Both the position numbers and the translations under genes were made by a program. The notes beneath the pieces are model-generated. The model made no database searches. It saw only the letters and a list, made by a program, of their open reading frames with translations, and had not been told where the DNA came from. From a virus, in the IMG/VR virus record IMGVR_UViG_3300027911_000049, positions 1 through 29,724 of that record: a DNA stretch of 29,724 nt. The stretch is one strand, 5' to 3'. Of the stretch, positions 4,148-17,496 are shown one piece after another (within the stretch, counting starts at the first letter, position 1; each line of letters starts with the position of its first letter).

Positions 4148-4435
4148 TCAGTAGTCCCCGTCGTCCGGCAGGTGGGCGAGGCTAACCTGCGGCTCGGTCC
4201 ACTTCGAGGACCAGTGCGCGTCCGCGGCCTTGCGCTTGCCGTGGTTCTGCGCGATCCACGCGCGCGCCTCCGCCTCGTTGACGGCGCTCTCGAGGAACAC
4301 CTTGCGCGCCTGCCCGGCGAGGACGGAGCTTCGCGGGTAGGTGCCCCATCCGTAGATGCTGACGCTGGTGTCGTAGCGGGACTGCGACAGGGTGAAATAA
4401 TCGAAACGCTCGGTGGTGCGGATTCCGTGGGCCAT
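4148..4435 (-). CDS. Hypothetical early protein, 95 aa
   Basis: Starts at ATG 4435 with a very strong AGGAGGA ribosome binding site. The protein (MAHGIRTTERFDYFTLSQSRYDTSVSIYGWGTYPRSS...) has an N-terminal beta-rich half and a C-terminal helical half with a basic NHGKRKAADAHW patch. No family is recognised. It is the third gene of the right-hand leftward operon. Confidence 0.6.
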   Translation of the reverse strand: MAHGIRTTERFDYFTLSQSRYDTSVSIYGWGTYPRSSVLAGQARKVFLESAVNEAEARAWIAQNHGKRKAADAHWSSKWTEPQVSLAHLPDDGDY

Positions 4436-5321: not shown

Positions 5322-6089
5322 TCAGTTGATCGCCGTCGCGCCCCACGAGGTCAGCACCCGCCCAAGGATGCGCGCCTCGCCGCGCTGGATCGTGGACTCG
5401 CGGAACTTCGAGTTGTCGGGGATCACGCGCAGCATCCCCGGGCCTTCGCGCTGAAGCCGGCGCACGTAAAAATCGTCGTGCAGCACGTAGCAGTAGACGG
5501 CATCCGCGCGGACATCCACCGTGCCGCGGTCCACCAACAGGATGTCGCCTTCCGCAATCGTCGGGTCCATCGCCGCGTCCTGCGCGGTGACGATGCCAAG
5601 GTTCTCGACTGCGACGTTCGGGGGAGCAATGCGTTTCAACCACGCCTGCGCGATTGCCATGCGAGCCACCGTCTCGACATGGGCCTCGAAAATCTGCGCC
5701 GTTTCCTGCGGCGCCGAAAGTTTCATTGAGGGTACGTCCACGTATTCTCCTGTTCGCGGGGTGACGGGCTCCCGGCGGCGTTCCGCTTGCATGGAAACGG
5801 TCCCGTGAGCAGGCATGCTAACACTACTTGACACCCGTGAGATTACTTCACGTTCATGTTCATTGACTCCGAACATCAAATGGGCAGGCGACGTGCCGAG
5901 AAAATCGGCCACCTTCTCCACGTGTTCCGCTCGGATCATCCCCCCGTGCATCCAAAGATTCACTGCGCTGCGCGACACGCCCACCGCTCGAGCGAGATCG
6001 AGTTGCGAGTAGTTCTTATCGGACAGCAAATCCTTGATGCGCTTCGCCCTCGCGCGGTCTGCTGCCGGCTTCGACTTGGCTTGGCCCAT
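5322..6089 (-). CDS. cI: CI/LexA-type phage repressor with apparently inactive S24 domain, 255 aa
   Basis: ATG 6089 follows GGAGGGAG. The upstream extension of the frame crosses the operator region and is rejected. Residues ~15-72 form a Cro/C1-type helix-turn-helix (YSQLDLARAVGVSRSAVNLWMHG). Residues ~160-250 are an S24/LexA-like peptidase domain (IVTAQDAAMDPTIAEGDILLVDRG, then DDFYVRRLQREG, then PDNSKF). In cleavable repressors the nucleophile is the Ser of a D-S-M-x-P motif and the base is the Lys of VKRL. Here the codons give Ala173 and Arg210. No Ala-Gly cleavage site is obvious in the linker. The protein should bind DNA and dimerise but not self-cleave. It is probably the regulator of the eight CAAG-N5-CTTG sites. 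Confidence 0.88.
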   Translation of the reverse strand: MGQAKSKPAADRARAKRIKDLLSDKNYSQLDLARAVGVSRSAVNLWMHGGMIRAEHVEKVADFLGTSPAHLMFGVNEHEREVISRVSSSVSMPAHGTVSMQAERRREPVTPRTGEYVDVPSMKLSAPQETAQIFEAHVETVARMAIAQAWLKRIAPPNVAVENLGIVTAQDAAMDPTIAEGDILLVDRGTVDVRADAVYCYVLHDDFYVRRLQREGPGMLRVIPDNSKFRESTIQRGEARILGRVLTSWGATAIN

Positions 6090-6158
6090 AACTCCCTCCG
6101 TGACAGTTCGTTGACAACCAGCCCCGTTGATCGAGACGGGATCGGCGGAGCATGGCGT

Positions 6159-6171
6159 CAAGAATAGCTTG
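6159..6171. promoter_or_regulatory. Repressor operator, copy 7
   Basis: CAAGAATAGCTTG in the cI-cro intergenic region. On the minus strand its CTTG arm continues as TTGACG, a possible -35 for repressor transcription. On the plus strand a TTGACA follows at 6175-6180, but no well-spaced -10 was found for it. Confidence 0.6.
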
Positions 6172-6228
6172 CCCTTGACATTTCGCGCAAGAGCGTATTT
6201 GCACGACCCCATTTTCCGGGAGGCGGTA

Positions 6229-6241
6229 CAAGGGACGCTTG
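6229..6241. promoter_or_regulatory. Repressor operator, copy 8
   Basis: CAAGGGACGCTTG, overlapping the -35 of the rightward early promoter in the same way as the leftward operators overlap theirs. Confidence 0.65.
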
Positions 6242-6267
6242 ACAGATTCAAGTGAGGCTGGCAAACT
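6239..6267 (+). promoter_or_regulatory. Rightward early promoter PR
   Basis: TTGACA (6239-6244), 17-nt spacer, CAAACT (6262-6267). Transcription would start near 6274, about 40 nt before the chosen start of the YdaS/Cro-like gene. The -10 is weak but the operator overlap and position support it. Confidence 0.6.
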
Positions 6268-6315
6268 GCGCCTGTGCCGGTGAAAAAGCCGGCCAACGCA
6301 GCGAGCGAGGAACAA

Positions 6316-6522
6316 GTGGAAAACCCGATGGAGAAGGCGGTCCGCATTGCGGGCGGCCAGAGCGAACTGGCCCGGATTCTGGGCGTCACCCGGGAGGCCG
6401 TTCGGCAGTGGGTCGTGTCGGGCCGCTGCTCCTACCTGCGGGTACTCGACGTGGAAAAGGCCACGAAGGTGCCCCGGCACATCCTGCGGCCTGACCTGTA
6501 TCCGAAGCCCTCGGCGCGCTGA
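6316..6522 (+). CDS. YdaS/Cro-like DNA-binding regulator, 68 aa
   Basis: GTG 6316 is chosen because AGGA lies 5 nt upstream and because the earlier GTG at 6274 would coincide with the expected transcript start. The protein reads MENPMEKAVRIAGGQSELARILGVTREAVRQWVVSG...VEKATKVPRHILRPDLYP. This is the YdaS antitoxin/Cro-type helix-turn-helix pattern, including the characteristic ending RHxLRPDxYP. Such proteins act as Cro analogues that shut down the repressor promoter during lytic growth. It is divergently oriented to cI, as expected, and begins the rightward early operon. Confidence 0.82.
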   Translation: MENPMEKAVRIAGGQSELARILGVTREAVRQWVVSGRCSYLRVLDVEKATKVPRHILRPDLYPKPSAR

Positions 6523-13592: not shown

Positions 13593-14150
13593 ATGTTCCG
13601 AAGCGCCCACGAGGCCCTGATCTTCTGCTTCCGGCACTCCGCGCAAGCCTACGAGCGCCCGTCCCTCAACAAGATGGGCGCCCCTCCCACCGGGCGCCCG
13701 CGCGGGCTCGGCGGTCTGGATGGCGCTGCGCAGGCCGGGATGGTCCGGGCGGAGATCCACGCCCTCGGCTCCATCAGCGAAGCCTGCCTCGTGGTGCGCT
13801 TCGCCCCGCAGCGGCTCGAGGAATGCTGCGCCCTGTGCGGGAGCCAGCGCGCGAACCGGGAGTGGATCGACTACCTGAACTGGCTCGCCACGCACATCGG
13901 GGAAACCGCTCTCAAGGACCAGCGCGCGGACCTGCGCACGCGCCGGGCTCTGGTCGCCCGGCACTTCGCGCCCCAGAAGGAGCGCCCGACGCTTGAGGAT
14001 CTGGGGGCCGCCTGCGGCTGCTCCGTGCGCTCCGCCAGTGACTACGCCAGCAAGGCGAGCAAGGAACTGATGAAGCTGGACCGGATCGCCTACCGCCAGA
14101 TCACGGAGCGGCTGCGGGAGGTCGGCATGCTGGAAGAGGAAGGGACGTGA
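13593..14150 (+). CDS. DNA-binding protein, putative Q-type late regulator, 185 aa
   Basis: The N-terminal part reads MFRSAHEALIFCFRHSAQAYERPSLNKMGAPP...GLGGLDGAAQAGMVRAEI, a signature I remember from proteins annotated as DNA-binding at this place in Burkholderiales phages. A CCALCG motif (CxxC) with nearby EWIDYLNWLA could bind zinc. Near the C-terminus LEDLGAACGCSVRSASDYASKASKELMKL looks like a sigma-region-4-type helix-turn-helix. The gene is the next-to-last of the early operon and lies about 250 nt before a strong promoter with a terminator right behind it, the arrangement expected for an antiterminator Q. Biochemical function is inferred from context. Confidence 0.6.
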   Translation: MFRSAHEALIFCFRHSAQAYERPSLNKMGAPPTGRPRGLGGLDGAAQAGMVRAEIHALGSISEACLVVRFAPQRLEECCALCGSQRANREWIDYLNWLATHIGETALKDQRADLRTRRALVARHFAPQKERPTLEDLGAACGCSVRSASDYASKASKELMKLDRIAYRQITERLREVGMLEEEGT

Positions 14151-14365
14151 CCCGGCACCAGATCGCGGAGGCCATGGCGCGCGAACTCCACATCTCCGGG
14201 CCGTACAGCCCGATTGTGGCCTCCCGCCTCATGGCCGCAGCGGACGCCATGCTCGCGCTCATGGAAACCGCGGCCGTCGTCGGCCAAGGCGGCGCCATCC
14301 TGCCCGGAAAGGGAGCGATCCTGCCCGTTGGCACGAAGCTCTGGAAATGGCGCAGTCCGGCTTGA
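14147..14365 (+). CDS. Hypothetical protein, 72 aa
   Basis: The GTG overlaps the preceding stop. The protein MTRHQIAEAMARELHISGPYSPIVASRLMAAADAMLALMETAAVVGQGG... is helical and soluble. Last gene of the early operon; its stop codon is followed after 1 nt by the parS-like palindrome. Family not recognised. Confidence 0.5.
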   Translation: MTRHQIAEAMARELHISGPYSPIVASRLMAAADAMLALMETAAVVGQGGAILPGKGAILPVGTKLWKWRSPA

Positions 14366-14366
14366 A

Positions 14367-14382
14367 TGTTCCACGTGGAACT
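14367..14382. promoter_or_regulatory. parS-like palindrome
   Basis: TGTTCCACGTGGAACT contains the perfect 14-bp palindrome GTTCCACGTGGAAC and matches the GC-rich form of the chromosomal ParB site, known from pseudomonads, at 15 of 16 positions. It lies in a non-coding gap 19 bp upstream of the late promoter -35 and about 930 bp upstream of a ParB-domain gene. Confidence 0.7.
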
Positions 14383-14401
14383 TGTCGCGTACACGCAACA
14401 C

Positions 14402-14431
14402 TTGACAAGTTGCATGTTCCGCATGTAAAAT
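14402..14431 (+). promoter_or_regulatory. Late promoter
   Basis: TTGACA (14402-14407), 18-nt spacer, TAAAAT (14426-14431). This is the strongest plus-strand sigma-70 match I found in the window. It is placed between the early operon and the late genes, so it probably drives 14520 onward, subject to the terminator just downstream. Confidence 0.82.
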
Positions 14432-14453
14432 GGCGCTTGAAAAGGTAAGTACC

Positions 14454-14496
14454 AGCACTACGCCCGGGCTCAACGCGCCGGGCGTTTGTGCTTTTT
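14454..14496 (+). terminator. Terminator right behind the late promoter
   Basis: Hairpin AGCAC..CGCCCGG, loop of 10, CCGGGCG..GTGCT, followed by TTTT. The stem has an inner loop but seven strong GC pairs. It begins about 15 nt after the expected transcript start, so late transcription would stop here unless antiterminated. Confidence 0.78.
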
Positions 14497-14519: not shown

Positions 14520-15059
14520 ATGAACGAACCGCAAGCCCACGAGGACCATCCCGACCACGAGCAGCATCAGGACGAACAGCCCGAATCCACTGCCGTCAGC
14601 CTCGCCGCGCATGCGGAACACCTTCAAGTCTCCGCCGCCCATCTCTCGGATGCCGTCGCCAACGGCGACTCGCACGAGGTCATCGCCGTCCACGCCGCGG
14701 CGGTCGAAAGCGCGGCCCACGAGGTCGCCATCGCCCACGCCGCCCATCAGGAAGCCGTGAACCCGCAGGGCACGCCAGTCCATGACGAGGCGCAGGCCGT
14801 CCACGCCCAAGCCGCCGCCGATCACGCCATCGACCTGCACGAAGCCGTCACGGCCGGCGCGCCCGAGGATGTCATCGCCGCCCACGTCCAAGCGACCGCC
14901 GCGTCCCTGTCCCACGTCGCCCCGGATGTCGTGCGCCACATCAGCCAGATGCCCGCCGCGGCCCCGGCCAAGTCCGCCGCCCCGATGATCGTCGGCATCC
15001 TCTTCACCCTCGCCGGCGCTGGCGCCGCAGTCGCGCACTTCGCCTTCCACCTGTTCTGA
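14520..15059 (+). CDS. His/Ala-rich protein with C-terminal membrane anchor, 179 aa
   Basis: First gene of the late operon. ATG 14520 is the first start after the terminator. About 140 residues are Ala/His/Glu/Val-rich helical repeats (for example AAHAEHLQVSAAHLSDAV, AAVESAAHEVAIAHAAHQEAV). I count 21 His in 179 residues. The C-terminus (APMIVGILFTLAGAGAAVAHFAFHLF) is one transmembrane helix. The long soluble part is therefore probably tail-anchored at the inner membrane. Position suggests lysis (holin- or spanin-related) or a membrane-remodelling job, but no known lysis family is recognised and no endolysin is adjacent. Confidence 0.65.
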   Translation: MNEPQAHEDHPDHEQHQDEQPESTAVSLAAHAEHLQVSAAHLSDAVANGDSHEVIAVHAAAVESAAHEVAIAHAAHQEAVNPQGTPVHDEAQAVHAQAAADHAIDLHEAVTAGAPEDVIAAHVQATAASLSHVAPDVVRHISQMPAAAPAKSAAPMIVGILFTLAGAGAAVAHFAFHLF

Positions 15060-15315: not shown

Positions 15316-15930
15316 ATGAAACACGCCGATTTCCAGCCGCAGATCGAGCAGGTCGCGCTCGAGAAGCTGTTGCCGTATGCGCGCAACTCGCGCACGCACA
15401 GCGACGAGCAGGTCGCGCAGATCGCCGCGAGCATCCGGGAGTTCGGGTTCGTCAACCCGGTCCTCATTGACGCCCGGGGCACGATCATCGCCGGCCACGG
15501 CCGCGTGCTGGCCGCCCGCAAGCTCGGGATGGACGAGGTCCCGGCGATCCAGTTGACGCACCTGAGCGATGCGCAGCAGCGCGCGCTCGTGATCGCGGAC
15601 AACAAGCTGGCCCTGAACGCGGGGTGGGACTACGACAAGCTGGCGGTCGAGATCGACGCGCTCAAGGACGACAATTTCGACGTGAACCTGCTTGGGTTCA
15701 CGGGCAAGGAACTCGCGGAACTCGTTGGCACGCCGAACACCGGCCCCGACGAGGGCAACGACGGGCAGCAGGGCTTCGGCGTCAGCTACACCATCGTGTT
15801 CGACGATCAGGAGCAGCAGGACAAGTGGTTCGCGTTCTGCAAGGGCCTGAAGACGCGCTACCCGCTGCACGAAACGCTCGGTGCGCGCATCACCGCCTAC
15901 ATCGAGGAAATCGGCCTCGCCAATGGCTAA
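15316..15930 (+). CDS. ParB/Spo0J N-terminal domain protein, 204 aa
   Basis: Residues ~10-120 are a ParB N-terminal domain: LLPYARNSRTHSDEQVAQIAASIREFGFVNPVLID (18-52), TIIAGHGRVLAARKLG (56-71, the GHxR nucleotide-binding motif) and VIADNKLALNAGWD. This subtype is usually fused to a DNA methylase in phages. Here the methylase part is absent and replaced by an ~80-residue C-terminal domain (GVSYTIVFDDQEQQDKWFAFCKGLKTRY...). ParB domains bind CTP or ATP. The stop overlaps the start of the PAPS-reductase-like gene by 8 nt, which places it in a four-gene module. Confidence 0.82.
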   Translation: MKHADFQPQIEQVALEKLLPYARNSRTHSDEQVAQIAASIREFGFVNPVLIDARGTIIAGHGRVLAARKLGMDEVPAIQLTHLSDAQQRALVIADNKLALNAGWDYDKLAVEIDALKDDNFDVNLLGFTGKELAELVGTPNTGPDEGNDGQQGFGVSYTIVFDDQEQQDKWFAFCKGLKTRYPLHETLGARITAYIEEIGLANG

Positions 15931-16984
15931 GGCGAAGCGGTACATCGAGGCGACTGTACTCGATGAGGCGAAGAAGCGCATCCACCACATCTTCGACATC
16001 TTCGATACAGTGGTCGTGATGTTCAGCGGCGGCAAGGACAGCCTTGCCACGCTGCACCTGACGCGCGAAGTCATGCTCGAGCGAGGCATCACCAAGCCCC
16101 TCGACGTGGTGTTCCGCGACGAAGAACTGATCCCCGATGAGGTCATCGACTTCGTGGACGGCTACCGGAAGCTGGACTGGATCAACATGATCTGGTTCAC
16201 CGTCCCGCTCAAGTCCACGAAGTACGTCCTCGGCGTCTGCCACAATTACGTCCAGTGGGACCCGAACCGCCCGTGGGTGCGCGAGAAGCCGGCGTGGGGC
16301 ACGAACCTCGCCCCGGGCGACGAGCGCGTGTTTGACCAGTACACCATGGACGCCTACACCGCCCAGAACTACCGCGGCAAGATCGCGTTCCTCACCGGCA
16401 TCCGCGCCAGCGAATCCATCATGCGATTCCGGGCCTGCGTGAACAAGCTGAACGAGAACTACATCAACGCCGTCAGTGACCCGTCCTGCAAGCACGTGTC
16501 GCTCTGCAAGCCCCTCTTCGATTGGGAAGAGAACGACATCTTCCGGTACTTCTACGACCGCAACATCGCGTATTGCTCGCTCTACGACATGCAGATGTGG
16601 GCCGGCAACGGCCTGCGCGTCTCGACGCCTCTGCACGCGGAGAGCGCCAAGCGGTTCGACAAGATCCGCAGCACCACCCCGGGCTTCTACGAGCGCGTCA
16701 TCGCCGTGTTCCCCGAGATGCTGGCCCACGAGCGGTACTACCGCGAACTGGACAGCGAGGCGATCCACCGTCGGTACGGCCAGTCCTACGAGGGCGTCCG
16801 GGCGTGGATCGAGGAACACATCACGGAGGAATCGCAGTACGACCTCGCCGTGGATCGGTTCGAGTCCGTCATGTCGCGCGCGCGCAAGACGCCTGACAGC
16901 TACCCCCCGCGCCACCTGCTCAACGCCTTCATGGGCGGCGGGTTCAAGCGCGAGATCCTTCCGCTCGGAAAGGGCGCGCAATGA
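15923..16984 (+). CDS. PAPS-reductase-like PP-loop ATPase (IbrA-type), 353 aa
   Basis: ATG 15923 inside the end of the ParB gene. The adenine-nucleotide PP-loop is seen at VVVMFSGGKDSLAT (30-43), and FLTGIRASES (156-165) is the second conserved motif of the phosphoadenosine phosphosulfate reductase family. The C-terminal half (CKPLFDWEENDIFRYFYDRNIAYCSLYDMQMWAGNGLRVS...) matches the larger IbrA-type proteins rather than CysH, which needs a C-terminal ECGLH cysteine. Enzymes of this fold activate a substrate with ATP and often transfer sulfur (DndC, thiouridine enzymes). IbrA with IbrB is known genetically as a prophage gene activator pair in E. coli. The next gene is IbrB-like, overlapping by 4 nt. 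Confidence 0.85.
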   Translation: MAKAKRYIEATVLDEAKKRIHHIFDIFDTVVVMFSGGKDSLATLHLTREVMLERGITKPLDVVFRDEELIPDEVIDFVDGYRKLDWINMIWFTVPLKSTKYVLGVCHNYVQWDPNRPWVREKPAWGTNLAPGDERVFDQYTMDAYTAQNYRGKIAFLTGIRASESIMRFRACVNKLNENYINAVSDPSCKHVSLCKPLFDWEENDIFRYFYDRNIAYCSLYDMQMWAGNGLRVSTPLHAESAKRFDKIRSTTPGFYERVIAVFPEMLAHERYYRELDSEAIHRRYGQSYEGVRAWIEEHITEESQYDLAVDRFESVMSRARKTPDSYPPRHLLNAFMGGGFKREILPLGKGAQ

Positions 16985-17496
16985 AGTTCGACGACCCGAT
17001 CACGAAGATTGAATGGCGCGACGCCTCGACGCTGGAAGCGAACGGGTGGAACCCGAACGTCGTCTTCGGCCCCGAACTGAAGCTGCTCGAGCGGTCCATC
17101 CTGACCTGCGGCTGGATCCAGCCCATCATCGTGAACCCGGAGGGCATCGTCATCGACGGCTTCCACCGCTGGAAGCTCTCGTCGGACTCGCCGGCGCTGC
17201 GCAAGCGGTACGGCGGCAAGGTGCCGTGCGTCGTGATGAACCTCGACCGCCCGGCCGCCATGATGCTCACCATCCGCATCAACCGCGCCAAGGGCACGCA
17301 CGTCGCCGTCCAGATGGGCGTCATCGTCCGCGAGCTCATCGACAAGCACGGCATCGACCCTCAGCAGATCATGGCCGAGATCGGCGCCACGAAGGACGAA
17401 GTGGACCTGCTGTATCAGGACGGCGTGTTCAAGATGAAGAACATCAAGGACTACGCCTACTCGAAGGCGTGGTATCCCTATGAGAAGCGGGCGTGA
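16981..17496 (+). CDS. ParB-fold partner protein (IbrB-type), 171 aa
   Basis: Short ParB/sulfiredoxin-fold protein: EWRDASTLEANGWNPNVV (11-28), LERSILTCGWIQPIIVNPEGIVIDGFHRWKL (36-66) with the IDGxHR nucleotide-binding motif, then RINRAKGTHVAVQMGVIV (99-116). The first half resembles IbrB, which always pairs with IbrA. It lacks the ParB helix-turn-helix and dimer domains, so it is not a classical segregation protein. The ATGA overlap with the IbrA-like gene and GTGA overlap with the methyltransferase-like gene indicate a single functional unit. Confidence 0.82.
   Translation: MKFDDPITKIEWRDASTLEANGWNPNVVFGPELKLLERSILTCGWIQPIIVNPEGIVIDGFHRWKLSSDSPALRKRYGGKVPCVVMNLDRPAAMMLTIRINRAKGTHVAVQMGVIVRELIDKHGIDPQQIMAEIGATKDEVDLLYQDGVFKMKNIKDYAYSKAWYPYEKRA

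Follow-up and report, generated by a model that had tools for sequence, protein, structure and literature searches.

Chromosomal parS sites of the ParABS system are described in a pseudomonad form, TGTTCCACGTGGAACA, and a universal form, TGTTTCACGTGAAACA. Plasmids are stabilised by a single parS with par genes (PMC7022226). The phi29 chromosome is entrapped in spores by Spo0J, as stated in the portion of PMC9437464 that cites Meijer 2005, and SGI1, according to excerpts of PMC10954446, hijacks the parABS of an IncC plasmid, a mobile element thus using the partition system of another replicon. AlpA and Q load at promoters followed by a pause element and a terminator and let RNA polymerase pass the terminator; their elements are located between -35 and -10 (PMC9371919, PMC7969949).

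The window analysed here, a stretch of 29,724 nt, is the entire IMG/VR virus record IMGVR_UViG_3300027911_000049 and carries a parS-like site beside a late promoter. The site is like chromosomal parS in 15 of 16 bases, in its 14-bp core and in the preferred flanks, but is present as a single copy, is not clustered near oriC and has no parAB beside it. With phi29, the record shares the situation of a phage without its own ParB and, presumably in the window, dependent on that of the host; phi29, however, is virulent and has a sporulating host, whereas the phage in the window is lambda-like, has a CI repressor and probably infects Betaproteobacteria. SGI1 differs, as far as the excerpts go, in being an integrative element that uses a plasmid system, not a phage using chromosomal ParB (PMC10954446). 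For an action of ParB on the late promoter, KorB and VirB would serve as the model, although they are proteins with binding sites of their own and strong repression by KorB requires its partner KorA. The likeness to P. aeruginosa AlpA and lambda Q lies in the predicted fold of one gene product (13593-14150) and in the order of promoter, pause and terminator; sequence identity is only about 20%, and the likeness concerns the neighbouring gene by which the late promoter is defined and does not extend to the palindrome.

The parS-like site and the phage record

Gene content of the record comprises a CI-like repressor, an O-like replication protein with DnaB helicase, RusA, and then a late region with ParB_N-domain proteins, a PAPS-reductase-like protein, terminase and portal. 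The CI-like repressor suggests a temperate lifestyle; its true start probably lies near residue 100 of the open frame. No tyrosine integrase was found in the record, which is possibly incomplete, and a nucleotide search found no DNA-level match to known phages. The features referred to below are as follows.

5322..6389, minus strand: open frame with CI-like repressor (Pfam and PHROGs); HTH at residues 114-170, peptidase S24.
13593..14150, plus strand: putative AlpA/lambda-Q-like antiterminator gene, 185 aa (predicted structure, Foldseek, VIA-align).
14147..14365, plus strand: small ORF, 72 aa (ORF list); overlaps the antiterminator stop codon (GTGA) and ends 2 bp before parS.
14367..14382, no strand: parS-like site TGTTCCACGTGGAACT (direct sequence, pattern search, flank profile of viral parS sites).
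14402..14431, plus strand: sigma70-type promoter; TTGACA at 14402-14407, spacer of 18 bp, TAAAAT at 14426-14431; 11/12 matches (promoter scan).
14444..14453, plus strand: likely sigma-dependent pause element GGTAAGTACC in the initially transcribed region (aligned promoter regions).
14454..14496, plus strand: intrinsic terminator hairpin and T-run, about 20-60 nt past the transcription start (terminator scan).
14520..15059, plus strand: first gene downstream of the late promoter; product of 179 aa, rich in His and Ala, C-terminus hydrophobic.
15316..15930, plus strand: ParB_N-domain protein, 204 aa, without ParB HTH (Pfam PF02195, E 6e-8).
16981..17496, plus strand: second ParB_N-like protein, 171 aa, without ParB HTH (PHROG 2159, E 1e-71; Pfam weak).

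The 16-mer TGTTCCACGTGGAACT was read directly from the window sequence and contains a perfect 14-bp palindrome at 14368-14381. It lies in the gap between the end of the 72-aa ORF (14365) and the start of the promoter (14402). An earlier, sequence-only reading had reported 15/16 identity to pseudomonad parS TGTTCCACGTGGAACA, a perfect palindrome and a late promoter 19 bp away; sequence, coordinates and spacing (16-mer end at 14382, TTGACA start at 14402, 19-bp gap) all proved correct. Compared with TGTTYCACGTGRAACA, 15 of 16 positions of the palindrome agree and the 14-bp core is perfect; the mismatch to pseudomonad parS is one outer base, which counts against the parS reading. No relatives of the products of the flanking 72-aa ORF and of the 179-aa gene were found by tblastn against all loci.

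When up to three mismatches to TGTTCCACGTGGAACA were allowed, a pattern search gave this single match in the window, and shuffled sequences gave a mean of 0.06. Under a first-order Markov model of the GC-rich window, the exact 14-mer is expected 1.2e-4 times and any of four GTTYCACGTGRAAC variants 3.3e-4 times, which bears out the earlier statement that a chance match is very unlikely. Eleven other perfect 14-bp palindromes occur in the window, every one different in sequence and none with the sequence of parS, so that palindromy alone is unremarkable and the parS identity is what is remarkable. The palindrome is very probably a host-type parS.

parS sites in viral contigs and named phages

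Since no close relatives were found that could show conservation, the test was run on whole collections. Among viral contigs, the perfect 16-mer TGTTCCACGTGGAACA is present in at least 120 stretches, and two scrambled palindromes of the same composition with the CACGTG core kept are present in 10 and 1. Redundancy among the viral sites is low (of 116 with sufficient flank, 108 are non-redundant), and their GC contents range over 0.23-0.71. Among named phages, two forms of an extended parS query match 159 and 356 records, respectively, and two scrambles match 0 and 0; in both collections parS is thus commoner than scrambled palindromes of its own composition. By gene content (terminase, portal, head genes), the parS-bearing contigs are phages.

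Flanks of T and A are found on 60 of 121 viral exact 14-mers and on 10 of 57 copies of a control 14-mer palindrome (Fisher P 4e-5), and the wider flanks of viral parS give a weak consensus, RA-parS-TY, to which the window site, with AA before and T after, fits in part. Sites with one matching outer base, the type seen in the window, number 43 in no more than about half of the collection, compared with 22 in the entire collection for the control, an excess of roughly four-fold or more; 14-mers in which neither outer base matches are near the control level (18 in roughly half of the collection, compared with 25 control sites in the full collection). Intergenic placement was rejected as evidence because control palindromes are intergenic just as often (viral parS 55/127, control palindrome 21/57, P 0.42).

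Named phages with matches include those of Pseudomonas, Bacillus (phi29, PZA, B103), Mycobacterium, Listeria, Microbacterium, Gordonia and Arthrobacter. Among the Pseudomonas phages with the site are the phiPsa374 and KoPa-4 groups and KPP25. In the phi29 group, the extended-parS matches fall, for instance, in the upper collar gene, and they may or may not be the sites that Spo0J uses. Spread samples of 60 rows each from the named-phage matches held no Escherichia or Salmonella phages; enterobacterial phages in them were few, all with genomes of 109-350 kb. Escherichia and Salmonella are hosts without chromosomal ParABS (PMC7022226), and the absence of their phages, relative to a collection of unmeasured make-up, suggestively fits this. 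A parS-like site in a phage has one known precedent, phi29, and is of a kind found in many phages; the general pattern, over-representation of parS in viral genomes without ParB, was not found described in searches of open-licence literature. With parS strongly over-represented in such genomes, the question can be approached in many cultured phages of the seven host genera listed above.

A tyrosine integrase was found in 0 of 39 parS-bearing viral records and in 9 of 40 control records (Fisher P 0.002; 0/39 and 7/40, P 0.012, when controls over the cut-off are counted), records that are fragments and drawn from sets that may differ in other ways. The deficit may mean that parS is selected against in phages that integrate, or may come from sampling, and it would fit the chromosomal cost of an ectopic parS (PMC5098823).

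Several particular cases were noted in these searches. In Pseudomonas phages phiPsa374, phiPsa267, phiPsa300 and phiPsa347, parS-like sites lie in the direct terminal repeat; in Vibrio phage phi 3, of a group unrelated to the phiPsa374 phages, they lie in terminal repeats as well, a location that puts a copy at both genome ends. Several Microviridae, with genomes of 4-7 kb, have extended parS sites, which is striking at such a small size. Five perfect parS 16-mers, 1-2 kb apart, were found in a single viral record, at 4324, 6308, 8135, 9161 and 10442. Many copies of the control palindrome GTCTCACGTGAGAC occur in IMGVR_UViG_3300035698_001390 and IMGVR_UViG_3300046678_000264, where they form an unrelated dispersed repeat.

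The late promoter and its probable antiterminator

The product of 13593-14150 has no family in Pfam, NCBIfam or PHROGs. Its AlphaFold model (pLDDT 87.9) is matched by Foldseek to 7xyb (P. aeruginosa AlpA; E 7e-4) and by VIA-align to 7xya (AlpA as well) with Z 13.9 over 151 residues and, more weakly, to 7ubn (lambda Q) with Z 7.2; the unrelated rows that follow score below 7. On the strength of this model, the protein appears to have an AlpA or Q fold. Its locus also holds a candidate target promoter with a pause-like element and an intrinsic terminator downstream. The pause role of GGTAAGTACC is proposed by analogy with AlpA/Q promoters (PMC9371919); at the same place, the aligned promoter regions of relatives have GCTAAGTACCC and GATAAGTACC. 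The hairpin at 14454-14496 (RNA fold -30 kcal/mol, z -3.0) is present in relatives too.

Relatives of the antiterminator gene number 98 in viral contigs, and in most of those read downstream the gene is followed by a promoter of the TTGACA type, an early motif resembling a pause element, and an intrinsic terminator, in the order seen in the window. The late promoter named by the sequence-only reading is therefore real and, by the predicted fold of the gene product and the architecture recurring in relatives, of the Q/AlpA type; its switch is very probably antitermination. Counting 23 bacterial genome contigs in addition to the viral relatives, the AlpA/Q-like proteins form a family that has gone without a Pfam, NCBIfam or PHROG entry. 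A dyad in the promoter spacer was considered as the binding element of the antiterminator and set aside: it reached P<0.05 in 11 of 23 promoters, but the window's own spacer gave P 0.61.

No parS-like site was found at the late promoter in the loci checked (52 of 80 antiterminator-gene loci and 35 terminase loci), all of distant relatives whose proteins are 28-45% (antiterminator) and 38-55% (terminase) identical to those of the window, too distant for the absence to refute the site. The late promoter architecture is complete in relatives without parS, from which it follows that parS is not a needed part of the late switch.

The parS stretch and the promoter spacer (14362-14388 and 14410-14436) share a 27-nt stretch that is 74% identical (TTGNATGTTCC...); within it a near half-parS, GTTCCGC, falls inside the promoter, possibly by chance.

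Ligand, host and role of the site

No partition operon was found among the ORFs scanned, and HTH_ParB is absent from the record, its best match being sub-threshold and overlapping the HTH of the CI repressor; a phage-encoded partition system of the P1/N15 type, with its own ParA and an HTH-bearing ParB beside the site, was thus not found. HTH_ParB was likewise found in 0 of 50 parS-bearing viral records. Both results agree with the earlier remarks that the phage's ParB-domain proteins lack the ParB HTH and that host ParB is the likelier ligand, and host ParB is, by these domain searches, the likely ligand of the site.

The 23 bacterial genome contigs with antiterminator relatives bear, wherever the title names a clade, betaproteobacterial names. 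A pseudomonad host, which the sequence-only reading implied, is not supported, as the prophage relatives of the antiterminator occur in Betaproteobacteria and the IMG/VR record is without a host. Among 21 bacterial genomes carrying related antiterminator genes, and thus candidate hosts, 19 have parS of the same class; in the betaproteobacterial genomes checked it is mostly TGTTTCACGTGAAACA (TT/AA) or mixed, not CC/GG. P. aeruginosa ParB binds both GTTCCAC and GTTTCAC half-sites (PMC10419367), so the form of parS need not restrict the host.

We infer ParB binding, clamp loading and a benefit to the phage, and hold with moderate confidence that the palindrome is a genuine host-type parS at which host ParB binds and slides as a clamp, the phage DNA being held or shared by this means; the site is probably one that recruits host ParB for tethering or partition. 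Chromosomal ParB of the host would bind the site during infection or lysogeny, close as a CTP-dependent clamp and slide into the adjoining phage DNA, which would connect the phage genome to the host ParA/SMC machinery. Phage DNA might then be kept at the nucleoid, or be positioned and divided among the daughter cells, with no need for a phage-encoded ParB, and the position beside the late promoter may most simply be a matter of available intergenic space. Counted against tethering or partition are the presence of one site only and the burden expected for the host, since an ectopic parS in an integrated prophage should be costly (PMC5098823), as well as the distant antiterminator and terminase relatives in which the site is missing and the parS form of the betaproteobacterial genomes checked. 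If host ParB does load via a borrowed parS, phages would have a simple way to be positioned, retained or shared at division, parallel to the use of ParB by phi29 in sporulating cells.

Alternatively, ParB sliding from the site might cover or crowd the promoter and lower late transcription, for example in lysogens or early in infection. The site centre is about 63 bp upstream of the likely late transcription start, and 19 bp separate the site from the -35 element; P. aeruginosa ParB represses promoters adjoining parS3 and parS4 (PMC5521831), expression from a test promoter falls when parS is placed upstream of it (PMC7022226), and promoter regulation by ParB-type clamps is seen with KorB and VirB (PMC11790492, PMC10770331). 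Promoters do not, however, recur near viral parS beyond chance (0.60/kb within 40 bp, compared with 0.44 near the control palindrome and 0.34-0.45 at greater distance), and the whole late promoter is present in relatives that have no parS. The parS-TTGACA pattern is found in at least 119 viral stretches, but these are mixed with coding sequence and the spacing is not fixed, so that the pairing was not accepted as a positive argument. Repression by sliding clamps alone is weak, as with KorB lacking its partner (PMC11790492). The spreading of ParB over the late promoter that the sequence-only reading had proposed is thus unsupported, and such a gate appears unlikely here; tethering or partition is preferred over it with moderate confidence, given the missing promoter enrichment, the weak repression by KorB alone and the phi29 precedent. 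The fuller proposal, that phages without ParB widely borrow the host centromere site and that here it is placed so that the ParB clamp gates the Q/AlpA-type late promoter, is doubtful; were the gate true, lytic gene expression would be linked to the state of host chromosome segregation.

A palindrome present by chance and without a ligand would be consistent with the eleven other perfect palindromes in the window, with the many motifs inspected in many windows, with relatives that are all too distant to demonstrate conservation, and with the near-control frequency of viral 14-mers lacking both outer bases; in view of an expectation of about 1e-4 to 3e-4, the large excess of the motif in viral contigs and named phages, and flanking AA and T that agree with the viral profile, it is rather improbable. 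An operator of the CI-like repressor or of the AlpA/Q-like antiterminator has in its favour that the phage encodes both, that the site has dyad symmetry and lies upstream of a promoter, and that the partly similar 27-nt stretch overlaps the promoter. Yet no second copy is present near the CI gene at three mismatches or fewer, and a CI operator was rejected for this reason and for want of a clear operator repeat near the repressor; Q/AlpA elements sit between -35 and -10, where relatives have dyads of their own (PMC9371919, PMC7969949), and the motif is common to unrelated phages that do not necessarily possess either regulator, all of which makes an operator very unlikely. Least probable, to the point of being nearly negligible, is a site for the phage's own ParB_N-domain proteins: their genes lie 1-3 kb downstream in the same orientation, but the record is without HTH_ParB, phages commonly have members of this family as ParB-nuclease or methyltransferase-linked proteins (PMC12704722), and ParB_N occurs in no larger share of parS-bearing viral records (1/50) than of controls (3/40).

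The model of the 204-aa ParB_N protein has a predicted ParB fold, a linker and then low-confidence helices; its C-terminal part was set aside because of too low a confidence. At 15316-17496, the ParB_N protein, the PAPS-reductase-like protein and the second ParB_N-like protein form a cassette, possibly linked to DNA modification or counter-defence.
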